64,000 nt of DNA from Streptomyces sp. NBC_00464 (GTDB taxonomy: Bacteria > Actinomycetota > Actinomycetes > Streptomycetales > Streptomycetaceae), in assembly GCF_036013915.1 (NCBI RefSeq), contig NZ_CP107899.1:8088001-8152000 (forward strand). The letters run 5' to 3'. A model generated the notes under the pieces. The model worked only from the letters and a program-made list of their open reading frames with translations, was not told where the DNA came from and ran no database searches. The position numbers and the translations under genes were made by a program. Positions 2,766-55,061 of this stretch are shown one piece after another (within the stretch, counting starts at the first letter, position 1; every line of letters starts with the position of its first letter).

Positions 2766-2893
2766 CGCCGCATCGTCGGCCCGGCTGTCCGTGCCGTGGA
2801 TCACAGTTCGGGGTGCGGATTCCCGGGAACGGGACCGGATGATTTATCGTTCACCTATATGTGGATGACGCGCTGAGCGCCCACACCAGAGCC

Positions 2894-2926
2894 GCCCCGG
2901 CTGGATTCCCCCGATCCGGCCGGGGC
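2894..2926. terminator. Strong bidirectional hairpin between rpmE2 and the DUF1275 gene
   Basis: A 13-bp stem with one mismatch (GCCCCGGC-T-GGAT, 7-nt loop, ATCC-G-GCCGGGGC). It sits between convergent genes and can serve both. Confidence 0.8.
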
Positions 2927-2943
2927 TTCCCCTTGTCCGTGGC

Positions 2944-3633
2944 CTACGCCCGGGCCGCTGCCGTGACGGCCCTCCGTCCGGCAGTTTCGACGAACAGAGC
3001 GGCGGCCGCCAGACCCGCGGCGGACACGGCGCCCGAAGCAGGCCACAGACGCACCGTCAGCGCGGCCAGTGCCGCGCCCGCCACGACGGCGAGCAGCCGG
3101 CCGGCGACCCAGCCGTCATCGTGACGCCACGATGCCCGGGCGAGCCGTGCGACGAGAGAGGTCAGCGTTCCGGTGAAGTAGTTCGTGGGCGTGGCCCGGA
3201 CACGGCCCTGGATGCCCATCGCGAGTCCCATGACCACCAGCAACCCCAGCCGGTCCGCGTCCGACGTGATCAGGCCGCACGCCCACAGCGCCGCGCCCAG
3301 GCTGAGCAGCACCACCTCGATCAGCAGCATGACGGGCAGCCGCCACCACACCCGCTCCCCGGCCACCGCGCCCCAGGCCACCCCGCACCCGTACGAGACC
3401 AGCGCGGTGACCACACGCAGCGCGACTCCCTCCTCGCCGGCCCCCGCGGCCGCGGCGCCCAGCAGTACCAGGTTGCCCGTCATCACACCGGCGAAGACCT
3501 GGCCGACGCAGATGAAGACGAAGGCGTCCGCTGCTCCGGAGGCCGCAGACAGCAGCAGAAGCGCCGCATGGGCGCGGGAACCGTCCGTGGCATCGCGGCC
3601 GGCCGGTTCGGTGGATGCGCTGGGAGTCGGCAC
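2944..3633 (-). CDS. DUF1275 (YoaK-like) integral membrane protein
   Basis: 229 residues with six or so hydrophobic segments. The DUF1275 signature is clear: GAADAFVFICVGQVFAGVMTGN near the N-terminus and a central segment ending in PTNYFTGTLT. The molecular function of the family is unknown; transport has been suggested only by topology. GTG start at 3633 with GAGG just upstream. It lies downstream of the photolyase gene on the same strand, but about 120 nt separate them, so co-transcription is uncertain. Confidence 0.9.
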   Translation of the reverse strand: MPTPSASTEPAGRDATDGSRAHAALLLLSAASGAADAFVFICVGQVFAGVMTGNLVLLGAAAAGAGEEGVALRVVTALVSYGCGVAWGAVAGERVWWRLPVMLLIEVVLLSLGAALWACGLITSDADRLGLLVVMGLAMGIQGRVRATPTNYFTGTLTSLVARLARASWRHDDGWVAGRLLAVVAGAALAALTVRLWPASGAVSAAGLAAAALFVETAGRRAVTAAARA

Positions 3634-3755
3634 GTCAGCATCCTCGCCGCCGCCCCGGCCTGCCCGGCGGCGTTGTCCCCGGCGTGGCGCGGCGGACCCG
3701 GCGCCGGAGCATTCCTGTGGGAGCGGGCGGCACCGGCTCCGGAGCGCGGTGGCGC

Positions 3756-5129
3756 TCAGTCCAGGCCGCGTGCCCGCCTGAAGCGGGACAGCCCGTCGGC
3801 CAGCCCCACCACCGGCTCCGGATAGTCCGGCCGGTCACGCCCCGACCTCCGCAGCTTCCACGGCTCATGCACGGCGGACCCGGACACCTCCGCCAGCTCC
3901 GGCACCCAGCGGCGGACGTAGCTGCCGTCCGGGTCGTATCGCTTGGCCTGGATCACGGGGTTGAGTACCCGGTTGGGGCGGCTGTCCGTGCCGGTCCCGG
4001 CCATCCACTGCCAGTTCAGCTGATTGTTGGCGACATCGCCGTCGACGAGCAGGTCCAGGAAGTGCCGTGCGCCGATGCGCCAGTCCACGTACAGCGTCTT
4101 GGTCAGGAAGCCGGCGGTGAGCAGCCGTCCGCGGTTGTGCATCCAGCCCTCGTGGCGCAGCTGGCGCATCGCCGCGTCGACCACGGGGTAGCCGGTGCGT
4201 CCCTGCCGCCAGGCCTCGATGTCCTCGGCGGCATCCGTCTCGGAGCGCCAGTGGTCGTGCCGGGTGCGGTAGTCCTGCCGGGCCGCGGCGGGCCGGGCCG
4301 CGAGGACCTGGTGGTGGAACTCGCGCCAGCACAACTGCCGGACGAAGGCCTCGGCCCCGGCCCCTTCAACGGTGCGGGCCCGGTGGACGAGCTCGACGGG
4401 GGACAGGGTGCCGAAGTGCAGGTGCGGCGAGAGCCGGGACGTCGCGTCGCCGGACAGGTCGTCGTGACCCTCCTCGTACGCCGCGAGCCCGTGACGCCGC
4501 CATGCGGTGAACCGTGTGCGGGCCTGACGCTCCCCGCCCTCGGCCAGACCCTCCGACACCCCGGAGACCGCGCTGCGGGCGGGCACGGCTTCCGACCCCG
4601 GACCGTCCGGGACCCGCACGGCCCGGGGCGCGGCGAAGGTCTCGCGTACCCGCTGCGCGGACCAGCGCCTGAAGTACGGCGTGAACACGGCGAAGTGGTC
4701 CGAGGCCGCCGGCGTCACGGCGCCGGGCGCGACCGCGGTGACCACGCCGTCGTGGACGTGCAGCCGCTGCCCGCCGGACGCCAGCGCCGCGCGCAGCCGC
4801 TCCTCGCGACGACGGGCGTACGCGCTGACGCCGGCCGCGAGATGGACGTCCGCCGCACCCGTCTCGGAGACGATCCGCCCCACCTCCTCGGCGACATCGC
4901 CCGAACGGATCACCAGCCTGCCGCCCCGCTCACGCAGCCCGGCGTCGAGATCCCGCAGACAGTCGGCAAGGAACGCCAGGCGGTTCGGGGCGCCGAACCC
5001 GGCCGCCTCGATCGCGCTGTCACGGACGAACAGCGGCACGATCTCGTCCGAGGAAGCGAGCGCCGCCCGCAGTGGTGGATGGTCGTGCAGCCGGAGATCG
5101 GCAGTGAACAGGACGACCGCTACGGTCAT
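3756..5129 (-). CDS. phr: Deoxyribodipyrimidine photolyase (class I)
   Basis: 457-residue flavoprotein that repairs UV cyclobutane pyrimidine dimers with blue light. The N-terminal antenna-cofactor domain begins VAVVLFTADLRLHDH. The FAD-binding C-terminal half has TSRLSPHLHFG, the CWREFHHQ segment, the RTGYPVVDAAMRQL motif and NQLNWQWMAG. ATG at 5129 is preceded by AGGAG; longer readings lack homology. It lies 56 nt behind the SDR/DUF2867 gene on the same strand, a frequent pairing in Streptomyces, so the two are probably co-transcribed. Confidence 0.95.
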   Translation of the reverse strand: MTVAVVLFTADLRLHDHPPLRAALASSDEIVPLFVRDSAIEAAGFGAPNRLAFLADCLRDLDAGLRERGGRLVIRSGDVAEEVGRIVSETGAADVHLAAGVSAYARRREERLRAALASGGQRLHVHDGVVTAVAPGAVTPAASDHFAVFTPYFRRWSAQRVRETFAAPRAVRVPDGPGSEAVPARSAVSGVSEGLAEGGERQARTRFTAWRRHGLAAYEEGHDDLSGDATSRLSPHLHFGTLSPVELVHRARTVEGAGAEAFVRQLCWREFHHQVLAARPAAARQDYRTRHDHWRSETDAAEDIEAWRQGRTGYPVVDAAMRQLRHEGWMHNRGRLLTAGFLTKTLYVDWRIGARHFLDLLVDGDVANNQLNWQWMAGTGTDSRPNRVLNPVIQAKRYDPDGSYVRRWVPELAEVSGSAVHEPWKLRRSGRDRPDYPEPVVGLADGLSRFRRARGLD

Positions 5130-5185
5130 GGCGCAACTCCTGGGAGGCCGGGGACATGCCATGCTGCCGTCCGCGGGCGCACCGG

Positions 5186-6712
5186 TCAGGGCGACACCGT
5201 GGCGCTCGCCGGTTCGGGTGACGCCGAGCCCGCCGCCGTACGGGCGATGTTGCGGGCCATCCCCCCGAACACGACCGAGTGGAAGGGCCACACGCTCCAC
5301 CAGTACGCGTGGCCGAGCAGCCCGCGCGGATGGAACAGCGCCCGCTGGCGGTAGCGCGAGCGGCCCCGGCCGTCGGGCTCCGCGTACATCTCCAGCCAGG
5401 CCAGGCCCGGCAGCCGCATCTCGGCGCGCAGCCGCAGCAGGCGGCCCGGCTCGATCTCCTCGACGCGCCAGAAGTCCAGCGAGTCACCCACGCGCAGCCG
5501 GTCGGTGTCCCGCCGCCCGCGTCGCAGTCCCACGCCCCCCACCAGCCGGTCGAGCCACCCGCGTACCGCCCAGGCGAGCGGGAACGAATACCAGCCGTGA
5601 TCGCCGCCGATCCCCTCGACGACCCGCCACAGCGCCTCCGGGGACGCGTTGACGTCGAGTCCGCGCACATCCGTGTACAGGCTGCCGCCGGCCCAGTCGG
5701 GGTCCGTGGGCAGTGGGTCGCTGGGCACCCCGGGCACGGATGCGGAGGACCACCGGGTGGTGACCCGTGCCTCCCGGACCCGTTGCAGTGCCAGCCGCAG
5801 CGCCTTGTCGAGGCCGAACGGCTGCCCGGGGCCGTCGGGGACGTACCGTGCGATGTCGTGTTCCCGGCACACCACCTCGTACCGCAGCGACTCGGCGAGC
5901 GGGCGGGCGATCGAGCGCGGCACGGGGGTGACCAGGCCGATCCAGTGGCTGGACAGCCGCGGGGTGAGCATCGGAACGGGGAGGATCAGCCGGTGCGGAA
6001 GGTCGGCGACCTCCGCGTAGCGCTGCATCATGTCGCGGTAGGTGACGATGTCGGGCCCGCCGATGTCGAAGGTGCGGCTCACCTCCCGCTCCATCCGGGC
6101 GCTGCCCACCAGATAGCGCAGCACGTCCCGCACCGCGATCGGCTGGATCCGCGTGGACACCCAGCTGGGCGTCACCATGACGGGCAGCCGCTCCGTGAGA
6201 TAGCGCAGCATCTCGAAGGAGGCCGACCCGGATCCGATGATGACCGCGGCCCGCAGAGCGGTGGTCGGGACGCCGGAATCCAGCAGGATCCTGCCCACCT
6301 CGGCCCGCGACCGCAGGTGCGGTGACAGCTCCTGTTCGGGTACGTCGTTAGGAGTGAGGCCACCGAGGTAGACGATCCGGCCGACCCCCGCCGCATGCGC
6401 CTGCTCCCCGAAGACCGTGGCGGCCCTGCGGTCCGTCTCCTCGAAGCCGCCGCCGGCCGTCAGGGCGTGCACCAGGTAGTAGGCCACGTCGATGCCCCGC
6501 ATGGCCGGGGCGAGCGACTGTGCGTCGGTGACGTCGCCTCGGACGATCTCCACCTCGCCCGCCCACGGGTAGTCCCGCAGCTTCTCCGGGCTGCGGGCCA
6601 GGCAGCGCACCCGGTACCCCGCCGCCAGAAGTTCCGGGACCAGGCGCCCCCCGATGTAGCCGGTGGCGCCGGTGACCAGACAGTGAGGCTCATTCCCGCG
6701 GTCGCTCGTCAT
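5186..6712 (-). CDS. NAD(P)-binding SDR-type oxidoreductase with C-terminal DUF2867 domain
   Basis: 508 residues in two parts. Residues 1 to about 300 form an extended/atypical SDR Rossmann domain: LVTGATGYIGG at the nucleotide site, then TRIQPIAVRDV as in NmrA-like members. Residues about 345-495 are a DUF2867 domain, which resembles the START/SRPBCC fold. The substrate is unknown. ATG at 6712 has GGAGA upstream. It precedes phr in what looks like a two-gene operon, which suggests a role in light or oxidative stress (inference). Confidence 0.9.
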   Translation of the reverse strand: MTSDRGNEPHCLVTGATGYIGGRLVPELLAAGYRVRCLARSPEKLRDYPWAGEVEIVRGDVTDAQSLAPAMRGIDVAYYLVHALTAGGGFEETDRRAATVFGEQAHAAGVGRIVYLGGLTPNDVPEQELSPHLRSRAEVGRILLDSGVPTTALRAAVIIGSGSASFEMLRYLTERLPVMVTPSWVSTRIQPIAVRDVLRYLVGSARMEREVSRTFDIGGPDIVTYRDMMQRYAEVADLPHRLILPVPMLTPRLSSHWIGLVTPVPRSIARPLAESLRYEVVCREHDIARYVPDGPGQPFGLDKALRLALQRVREARVTTRWSSASVPGVPSDPLPTDPDWAGGSLYTDVRGLDVNASPEALWRVVEGIGGDHGWYSFPLAWAVRGWLDRLVGGVGLRRGRRDTDRLRVGDSLDFWRVEEIEPGRLLRLRAEMRLPGLAWLEMYAEPDGRGRSRYRQRALFHPRGLLGHAYWWSVWPFHSVVFGGMARNIARTAAGSASPEPASATVSP

Positions 6713-52719: not shown

Positions 52720-53397
52720 TCACGTGACCTCCGCTCCCAGCAGTTCCCGGAACGCCTCGGCCCCCACCTCAGTCACCTTCACCGCCCGCCCTGAGCCGAT
52801 CCGTCGCACCCACTGCCTCTCCAACGCCGTGGCGCACAGGGCCGCTCCCGCCGCTCCGGCCAGATGTGACCGGCGCTCGGTCCAGTCCAGGCAACTCCGC
52901 ACCAGGGGCCGGCGAGCGCCCTCGGGATGCCGGTAGCCCAGGGCGTCGGCCAGCCAGTCCAGGCCTGCCGGGGTGACGGCCGGCCCGGCATCGTCGGAGA
53001 CAAGCCCCCGGGAGACCATGGCGTCGGCGAGGGTCACACCCAGTTCACCGGCCAGGTGGTCGTAGCAGGTCCGGGCTCGCGCCTCGGCGCCCGCCTGCAC
53101 CGATTGGCGCAGGTTCCGCGGTCGGGGGCTGCTCGGGGCGTACGAGGCGACCGCCTCGATCAGGGCAGCCGCCTCCGGGCCGGCCAGTCGCACATAGCGG
53201 TGCCGACCCTGCCGCTCCTCGGCCAGGATCCCGCCCTCGACGAGACGGGAGAGCTGCTCGCTCGCGGTGGAAGCGCTGACCCCGGCGCCCCGGGCGAGTT
53301 CGCCCGCGGTCCAGGCGCGGCCGTCGAGCAGGGCCTGACAGAAGGTGGCCCGGGTGTGGTCGGCGAGCAGGGCGGCCGTTTCGGAGAGCGAGGACAT
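52720..53397 (-). CDS. ArsR-like winged-helix transcriptional regulator
   Basis: 225 residues. The N-terminal winged helix (TRATFCQALLDGRAWTAGELARGAGVSASTASEQLSRLVEGGILAEE, wing GRHRYVRL) is followed by a C-terminal domain of about 130 residues (ARTCYDHLAGELGVTLADAM, CLDWTERRSHLAGAAGAALC). That extension has the CYDHLAGxxGV motif of Streptomyces ArsR regulators. It is divergent from the P450-ICL/PEPM fusion gene, with an operator-like repeat in the 65-bp gap. Confidence 0.92.
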   Translation of the reverse strand: MSSLSETAALLADHTRATFCQALLDGRAWTAGELARGAGVSASTASEQLSRLVEGGILAEERQGRHRYVRLAGPEAAALIEAVASYAPSSPRPRNLRQSVQAGAEARARTCYDHLAGELGVTLADAMVSRGLVSDDAGPAVTPAGLDWLADALGYRHPEGARRPLVRSCLDWTERRSHLAGAAGAALCATALERQWVRRIGSGRAVKVTEVGAEAFRELLGAEVT

Positions 53398-53420
53398 GCA
53401 GCCATGATGCCCCCACAACG

Positions 53421-53438
53421 GTTCGGACCTCGCCGAAC
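53421..53438. promoter_or_regulatory. Operator-like repeat between ArsR and the P450-ICL fusion
   Basis: GTTCGG-ACCTCG-CCGAAC is a perfect inverted repeat; the arms extend to 9 bp with one mismatch. It is centred in the 65-bp divergent gap, so a bound repressor would cover both promoters. Confidence 0.7.
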
Positions 53439-53462
53439 GGTTCCAGCCCTAGCGTCGGAACC

Positions 53463-55061
53463 ATGACGCACACGACGCATGAGTTCGATCGTTTCGAGGA
53501 CGTACGGTCTGCGCTGGCCGACCCGGCTCTCGTCCCCGACAGGCCCGCCGCGGACGACGGTCCGGCCGGGGCGAGTGTCGCCTGGCTGCGCGCCACAGTG
53601 GCCCGGTTCAGCCACGGAGAGCCACACCGCCGGCGGCGGGCTCTGGCCGAGGCCGAGCTGGCCCGTCTGACGCCTGAAGCACTGCGACGGGCGGCCGCCG
53701 TGGCGCCCGCGGGAGAGACCCGGGTCAGGGTCGTGCGTACCCTGGCCGAAGCCCTGGGAATGCCGCGGCCCACGGCCGTGGCCGAGGCGGTGATCGTGGT
53801 GGCCGGCGTCTACTTCGGTGGTGACGACGCAGCCGCTGACGAAGCAGTGGCCAGGCTGGTGCAGTGGCTGGCGCCACCCCCGTCGAACGAGGCCGCGCTG
53901 GAGTCCGCAGCCAACCTCATCGGTCTCCTGCTCCAGGCGTGCGAGGCCACGGCAGCGCTCGTCGATGCCGCTTCCGACAGCGGTGACCTTCCGCTCTCCA
54001 GGGTCCTGCGGGACCTGCCGCCGGTACGTGGCATGCGTCGCGTCGCCGTTGGAGCGACCACGGTCAAAGGCCGGGAGATCGCCGGAGGTGACGTGGTGCT
54101 CCTCGATCTGGCGACCGCCAACCGCGCACACCCGGTGCCCCTTGCTTTCGGCGCCCCGCCCCGCATCTGCCCCGGCCGGGCCCACGCCCTCGCGCTGACG
54201 GACGGGCTGCTTCAGCGCCCCCTCACCCCGTTCGCCCGCCTGCACCACCGGACCGCCCCACTGCTGCTGCCCAACGCCTGGGACTACGCCTCAGCCGCAG
54301 CACTGGCAGCCGAGGGCTTTGCCGCCGTGGGCACCACGAGCCTGGGCGTAGCCGCTGCCGCCGGCCTGCCGGACGGGGCGGCCGCGACGTTCGAGGCGAC
54401 CTTGGCGCTGACTTGCCGCCTGGGAGAGGGCCGTTTCCTGTTCACCGTCGACGCCGAAGGCGGGTTCAGCGACGACGCGCAGGAAGTGGCCGAGATGGCC
54501 AGGATCCTGTACGACGCGGGCGCGGCCGGCATCAACCTCGAGGACGGCCGCGCCGATGGCACACTCGCGCCGATGGAAGTGCACGCGGCAAAGATCGCCG
54601 CGGTCAAGAGCGCGGTGCCTGCGCTGTTCGTCAACGCACGCACCGACACCCACTGGGCGGCCCGCCAGGAGGACGAGACCGCGACGCGCCTCGCCCTGTA
54701 CGAACAGTCCGGCGCCGATGGGGTGTTCGTGCCGGGGCTGTCGGATCCGGACGGCATTGCCGAGCTGACCTCGGCACTCGTCGTACCGCTGAACATCCTG
54801 TACACACCGACCGGCCCCACGCTCCCCGAACTGGCCGCGCTCGGCGTGCGCAGGGTCAGCCTCGGTTCGCTGCTCTACCGCAGGGCGCTCGCGACGGCTG
54901 TGGCCACGGCGACCGCCATCCGGGACGGACGGCCGACGGATGCGAATGCCCCGTCCTATGCCGAGGTTCAGGCACTGGCAGGCGGGCGGCGGGGCCCGTC
55001 CGACGTCGCCGGCCCGGGCAACCGGCAGCCAGGGCCGGTCGCTCCGGCATCTGCTCCGTAG
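53463..55061 (+). CDS. Fusion of a reduced cytochrome P450-like domain with an isocitrate lyase/PEP mutase domain
   Basis: 532 residues in one uninterrupted frame. Residues 1 to about 255 are P450-like but far short of the usual 400. An I-helix-like AANLIGLLLQACEATAALV (149-167), PPVRGMRRVAVG and a heme-ligand loop FGAPPRICPGRA (Cys236) are present. The Glu of the ExxR motif is missing, and about 20 residues before the heme loop are deleted. From about 257 a full ICL/PEPM barrel follows: LLLPNAWDYASA, VDAEGGFSDD, INLEDGRADG and NARTDTHW. No start signal exists near the junction. The substrate is unknown; such domains cleave or form C-C or C-P bonds next to carboxylates. Confidence 0.88.
   Translation: MTHTTHEFDRFEDVRSALADPALVPDRPAADDGPAGASVAWLRATVARFSHGEPHRRRRALAEAELARLTPEALRRAAAVAPAGETRVRVVRTLAEALGMPRPTAVAEAVIVVAGVYFGGDDAAADEAVARLVQWLAPPPSNEAALESAANLIGLLLQACEATAALVDAASDSGDLPLSRVLRDLPPVRGMRRVAVGATTVKGREIAGGDVVLLDLATANRAHPVPLAFGAPPRICPGRAHALALTDGLLQRPLTPFARLHHRTAPLLLPNAWDYASAAALAAEGFAAVGTTSLGVAAAAGLPDGAAATFEATLALTCRLGEGRFLFTVDAEGGFSDDAQEVAEMARILYDAGAAGINLEDGRADGTLAPMEVHAAKIAAVKSAVPALFVNARTDTHWAARQEDETATRLALYEQSGADGVFVPGLSDPDGIAELTSALVVPLNILYTPTGPTLPELAALGVRRVSLGSLLYRRALATAVATATAIRDGRPTDANAPSYAEVQALAGGRRGPSDVAGPGNRQPGPVAPASAP

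Follow-up and report, generated by a model that had tools for sequence, protein, structure and literature searches.

EryCII belongs to the P450-derived activators without Cys and heme and keeps the I, J, K, K' and L helices, according to PMC3391682, while the CYP157 proteins of Streptomyces have lost the Arg of the ExxR motif and kept its Glu, as described in PMC3599690. We found no description of a P450-like protein paired with a PEPM barrel in the open-licence PMC papers searched, and within this scope the original prediction that no characterised enzyme is known to have such an architecture stands. The window considered here is a 64,000-nucleotide stretch of the 8.96 Mb genome of Streptomyces sp. 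NBC_00464, in which a single ATG-initiated ORF of 532 codons (53463-55061, forward strand) encodes a protein with a stripped-down P450 front half and a lyase-type back half. The one frame proposed earlier is thus confirmed, with PF13714 in the back half and a predicted P450 fold in the front half. Its features are as follows.

53463..55061, + strand: fused gene, P450-like N domain plus PEPM-type barrel, 532 aa (ORF, Pfam, homologues)
53463..54224, + strand: predicted P450-fold domain, residues 1-254 (AF2 model; Foldseek and VIA matches)
53625..53639, + strand: C-helix HRRRR, residues 55-59, with heme-propionate-type His/Arg (H55 and R59 in 118/118 long fusions listed)
53889..53978, + strand: I helix, residues 143-172, with QACEAT (Thr163 kept, acid position Ala162)
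54000..54011, + strand: K-helix ExxR position, here RVLR, residues 180-183 (R180 in 116/118 long fusions listed)
54147..54176, + strand: heme-thiolate loop FGAPPRICPG (Cys236 codon 54168-54170)
54222..54227, + strand: fusion junction, residues 254-255 (L254 opposite the start Met in locus L071, whose barrel gene is separate)
54231..54920, + strand: PEPM/ICL-superfamily barrel (PF13714), residues 257-486 (profile match)

The sole Pfam match in the protein is PF13714 (PEP_mutase) at residues 257-486, with 223.4 bits against a cut-off of 31.5, which places the barrel in the PEPM/ICL superfamily as expected. It aligns best with 4lsb, 4mg4 and 2ze3, and none of D330, E360, D361, N391 and R393 varies over the 68 rows of alignment A1. 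None of the 50 PDB matches listed for the full-length model is described as having a P450 part, the C half filling this list. The superfamily name should not be taken to mean isocitrate lyase activity because the catalytic Cys loop is missing; the KKCGH loop of the petal death protein (1zlp), which we take to be the catalytic loop, falls opposite a gap in the barrel here. Isocitrate/methylisocitrate lyase was rejected on this gap and on TIGR02317 (49.7 vs 354.4 bits), and C-P bond forming PEP mutase on TIGR02320 (23 vs 319.55 bits).

Taken alone, the N half of the window protein lies below every Pfam family threshold, PF00067 included, and gives weak P450-type NCBIfam matches. The profile of alignment A2 (96 rows) retrieves P450s from the PDB (best E 1.2e-13), with CYP164A2 (3r9b) as best match and P450BioI (3ejd/3ejb) as nearest solved folds, and of its 96 members 55 reach PF00067 with E values of 0.01 or below. 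An AF2 model of residues 1-256 (pLDDT 94.7, pTM 0.91) matches P450s in Foldseek and VIA, searches that speak to P450 likeness and not to the absence of some other fold. The heme loop (block 231-240) is poorly defined in the full-length model (pLDDT 58) and reaches 93 in the N-only model. Among the relatives, P0271, P0272, P0138 and P0273 pass the Pfam p450 cut-off, P0159 and P0225 miss it, and the Kitasatospora fusions P0271 and P0272 exceed the cut-offs for both p450 and PEP_mutase. The PDB profile search, the A2 members and the predicted structure agree on a P450-like N domain, the predicted fold being that of a P450 and not an unrelated one. In our reading of the model the substrate-lid regions seem shortened and the J helix is apparently missing.

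All 120 listed N-half matches of similar protein size (at least 251 matches in total) carry PF13714, and the 118 of these fusions longer than 480 aa (P0015 and P0039 excluded for length) were used for residue counts. H55, R59, T163, R193 and C236 are each present in 118/118, A162 in 117, R180 in 116 and R183 in 112. The heme-ligand loop with Cys236 and the I-helix-like segment, both anticipated by the original prediction, are confirmed, the loop being of the FGxxxRxCxG type. The ExxR Glu is absent, again as claimed, and Arg takes its place in 116 of the 118; similarly, the acid-alcohol pair retains its Thr in all 118 and has Ala at the acid position in 117. The gap ahead of the heme loop is smaller than the roughly 20 residues first suggested, amounting to 15 when measured against P0271 and P0272, which keep the meander. 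As side observations, the fusions P0016 (617 aa) and P0005 (570 aa) carry long low-complexity inserts in the loop preceding the I helix, consisting in P0016 of PGSTQVG-type repeats.

In 118 further proteins listed by the search with the N domain alone, the Cys position holds Cys in 111 (gap 5, Ser 1, Ala 1), the ExxR Glu position is mixed (Glu 55, Arg 18, Ala 16, Asp 11, Ser 4, Gly 3, gap 5, besides six other letters) and the H55 position is Tyr in 2 of 108 covering proteins. In 81 locus rows (the window and the best 80 of 265 loci), the 78 rows that cover the Cys position all have Cys and the 80 that cover H55 all retain it; the ExxR Glu occurs in 18/77 covering rows, and of the 79 rows covering the acid position 75 have Ala and 4 have Pro. 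The I-helix Thr and Gln are fully conserved. Taken together, these counts indicate that family members differ in whether they have the ExxR Glu and the meander, whereas the Cys ligand is nearly constant. Nine heme-type positions, picked by us from general P450 anatomy, the source also of the roles given to H55 and R59, have a mean conservation of 0.96 vs 0.57 for all positions, and 0 of 100,000 random sets scored as high. The N domain is under purifying selection, with NG86 dN/dS values of 0.26-0.49 (n=6 pairs). Judged from these residues, the N domain probably binds heme via Cys236. The original prediction had left the choice between a heme protein and a heme-free scaffold undecided; the conserved Cys and heme-propionate-type residues now favour heme, short of proof.

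One genome per species was scanned for related loci, and the best 80 of 265 were compared; those placed taxonomically belong to the Actinomycetota. Linkage was recounted by tblastn over all 80, with barrels counted at 60 bits or more and no further than 3 kb downstream, because the gene caller had placed the N gene in just 63 of them. Of these best 80 loci, 39 are fused, 28 have a barrel gene next downstream and 13 have no barrel inside 3 kb, two of the latter (L065 and L094) being cut by a contig end; in 21 of the 28 split loci the N and barrel genes overlap by 4 bases. With 39 loci fused and 28 split, the family is not consistently two genes, as it would have to be to speak against a genuine fusion. 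No start codon occurs at the junction, so that the earlier exclusion of two overlapping genes is upheld (zero in-frame ATG, GTG or TTG at residues 250-256). The separate barrel gene of L071 (Kitasatospora sp. MAA4, a split pair in which ExxR is retained) begins MTPFAALHRADTPLLLPNAWD where the fusion has LTPFARLHHRTAPLLLPNAWD, that is, MTPFAALH vs LTPFARLH, and because this barrel start aligns with the junction residues we read the junction as the mark of an old gene border. On a tree of 80 rows (the window and 79 of the best 80 of 265 loci, L094 being too short), the fused state has to change three times, and starred branches force at least two of these changes; the tree does not distinguish fusion from fission. 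Fused rows sit in a largely Streptomyces main clade (support 81/55 only) and are also found in Kitasatospora sp. Root107 and Herbihabitans. In L048 (10001-11565, Streptomyces sp. TP-A0874) the barrel part is split over two reading frames (389 aa and a second piece).

In relatives the two halves are encoded side by side, so that joint action is very probable and a shared pathway highly likely. Among the 30 commonest neighbour clusters listed, an ArsR-type gene and the barrel adjoin the N gene; the remaining listed clusters are generic (response regulator, transporters) or limited to few related loci. A search of the best 80 of 265 loci with simple regular expressions turned up no ferredoxin-type 3Fe-4S motif and, with a loose 2Fe-2S expression, 31 candidate matches. 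A defence-system reading was dropped, the fused protein having no match among the PADLOC models. In L065, L066, L067 (5197-7608), L069, L072, L078 and L080 a large gene upstream of the P450-like gene appears from its sequence to resemble geosmin-type terpene synthases.

The barrel can dispense with the N domain: 18 of 20 regions around related barrels (54-66% identical), drawn from genomes without a close N-domain match, had no N-domain match at E 1e-3. The remaining two are L130, cut by a contig end, and L127, where an ordinary 403-aa P450 gene lies upstream of, and on the same strand as, a stand-alone barrel gene 55% identical (2784-5565). Conversely, Cys is retained in 11/11 covering rows without a barrel gene (12/12 counting L065) among the best 80 of 265 loci. 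Five Catenulisporales loci (L070, L073, L074, L075, L079) have the N domain with its Cys and no adjacent barrel gene found, and the best barrels in Catenulisporales genomes with the N domain are just 41-45% identical, which speaks for the N domain having an activity of its own. The P450-like protein bears an extra C-terminal part in ten split loci and L065 (best 80 of 265). Whether this part is DinB-like is a weak lead, because DinB_2 matches 5/96 A2 members and three proteins with the extra part (P0138, P0159 and L112) gave no DinB match. A stretch similar to it, with the same weak DinB-like name, immediately precedes a related PEPM barrel gene in L112 (3522-4744) and L114 (1045-2246), where the P450-like part is missing.

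Upstream of the fused gene lie the following elements.

52720..53397, - strand: divergent ArsR-type winged-helix regulator, 225 aa from an inner ATG (HTH_20, PDB matches)
53421..53438, no strand: inverted repeat GTTCGG-N6-CCGAAC, putative ArsR operator (exact site unique in the genome)
53450..53455, + strand: TAGCGT, -10-like hexamer (ends 7 bases ahead of the ATG)

The regulator, scanned as 52720-53418, matches HTH_20 with 41 bits vs a cut-off of 27 and has SmtB-type PDB matches; HTH_metalloreg reaches 49.1 bits, under its cut-off of 55. In PADLOC its matches to the models Csa3 and PDC-M05A are confined to the first 85 residues. By tblastn an ArsR-type relative is found in 47 of the best 80 of 265 loci, 43 times divergent upstream: in 22/39 fused loci (all divergent), 21/28 split loci (17 divergent, 4 same strand) and 4/13 others. 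Between the ArsR-type and fused genes the putative operator reads GTTCGGACCTCGCCGAAC, with one exact copy in the 8.96 Mb genome. At two mismatches or fewer and no more than 400 bp upstream, the palindrome occurs in 70 of the best 80 of 265 loci vs 0.035 expected, as computed from the remaining sequence of those loci, and ten loci lack it at that stringency. It is common to the upstream regions of fused and split forms, with near copies ahead of relatives in Streptomyces, Kitasatospora and Micromonosporaceae, and probably serves the divergent ArsR-type regulator as its operator. Related barrels that lack an N domain can also have it, exactly in L129 (ArsR-type gene and barrel) and with one mismatch in L112 (DinB-like gene and barrel), so the barrel and regulator may be the more constant element and the P450-like part one of its partners; L126 and L127 have no copy at one mismatch or fewer. 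Judged by eye and uncounted, a similar -10-like hexamer stands in many other loci, and the transcript may be leaderless, which would explain the weak ribosome site.

The reading we favour, still tentatively, is that a P450-derived N domain of ~250 residues acts as an enzyme together with the PEPM/ICL barrel, the pair being made on ArsR-type derepression. The N domain would hold heme through Cys236, a step with good support, and may, with less support, be an enzyme and more than a prop; catalysis by this domain has somewhat less than, or at best, an even chance. It could act on a small carboxylate, oxidising or rearranging it through a peroxide or shunt route or using electrons that a general donor supplies; the barrel, which is Mg-dependent, would cleave the product or make the substrate. 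The pair would be produced on demand when the ArsR-type repressor leaves the palindrome. With Ala at the acid position in 117/118 long fusions listed, ordinary O2 activation is doubtful. CYP152 uses a carboxylate-assisted peroxide route, and a route like it would fit acid substrates. A more specific version, somewhat unlikely as it stands, is a two-centre enzyme in which a minimal heme-thiolate core treats a small acid and passes the product directly to the PEPM-type barrel; the core chemistry would be peroxide- or carboxylate-assisted, managing without ExxR, meander and classic acid, and the barrel would perform C-C or C-X cleavage.

Several other readings have to be weighed against a catalytic N domain. 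The P450-fold domain could instead bind heme together with a gas or ligand (NO, CO, substrate) and switch the barrel while oxidising nothing. The lost acid, the lack of a ferredoxin motif nearby, the shortened lid and the close coupling to one enzyme all suit such a sensor; however, the N domain has no adjacent barrel in 11 of the 78 uncut loci (best 80 of 265), the ArsR-type regulator already provides sensing, and the I-helix Thr and Gln are fully conserved. Sensing by the N domain is unlikely, though the strongest of these alternatives. That the domain is a heme-free scaffold or allosteric activator of the barrel, like EryCII and DesVIII for glycosyltransferases, is less probable again. P450-derived activators offer a precedent (PMC3391682), the ExxR, the meander and, in our reading, the J helix are gone, and there is some TIGR04515 likeness (19.6 bits here, 63.2 for P0272, far under the cut-off of 343). 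The pattern of loss is the reverse, however, since EryCII is without Cys in that same paper and here other parts are lost while Cys stays, in all 118 long fusions listed and 78/78 covering rows, along with the His/Arg set; EryCII-type heme loss is accordingly disfavoured. An ordinary P450 monooxygenase that merely happens to share transcript and reading frame with a lyase from its own catabolic pathway is improbable, even though P0271, P0272 and some of the split forms still have both ExxR and meander and exceed the Pfam p450 cut-off. The missing acid (Ala 75, Pro 4 in 79 covering rows) and the absence of a 3Fe-4S ferredoxin motif in the best 80 of 265 loci tell against it, as does an ExxR Glu in just 18/77 covering rows. 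Finally, a sequencing error or chance frame joining two genes, which the two-gene form in relatives might suggest, can be dismissed given 39/80 fused loci (best 80 of 265), recurrence in 118 long protein clusters listed and P0001, the closest homologue, a near-identical fusion in the record of another strain, Streptomyces sp. BE230 (98% over the N half).

These proteins amount to a natural test of how far a P450 can be pared down, with the Cys and propionate-type contacts staying while the ExxR Glu and meander are missing across much of the family. They link P450-type chemistry to the PEPM/ICL superfamily, and fusion, operon and common palindrome together make the pathway testable. If true, the two-centre enzyme would rank with the smallest functional P450 cores and represent a new oxidase-lyase pairing.

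Compared with the cytochrome P450 superfamily (PF00067, ~400 residues), the N domain has ~250 residues, is without the ExxR Glu, meander and I-helix acid, and is joined to a lyase-type barrel. The barrel is shared with the short-loop PEPM/ICL members 4lsb, 4mg4 and 2ze3 (DFA0005), which are barrels alone and whose entry titles name no reaction. Like CYP157, this is a Streptomyces P450 without a standard ExxR, but here it is the Glu that is missing, the Arg remaining in 112/118 long fusions listed. With EryCII and DesVIII (TIGR04515) it shares a P450 fold tied to a single partner enzyme, whereas it does not qualify as a glycosyltransferase activator (19.6 vs 343 bits): it keeps the Cys, has no meander and apparently no J helix, and is paired with a PEPM barrel.
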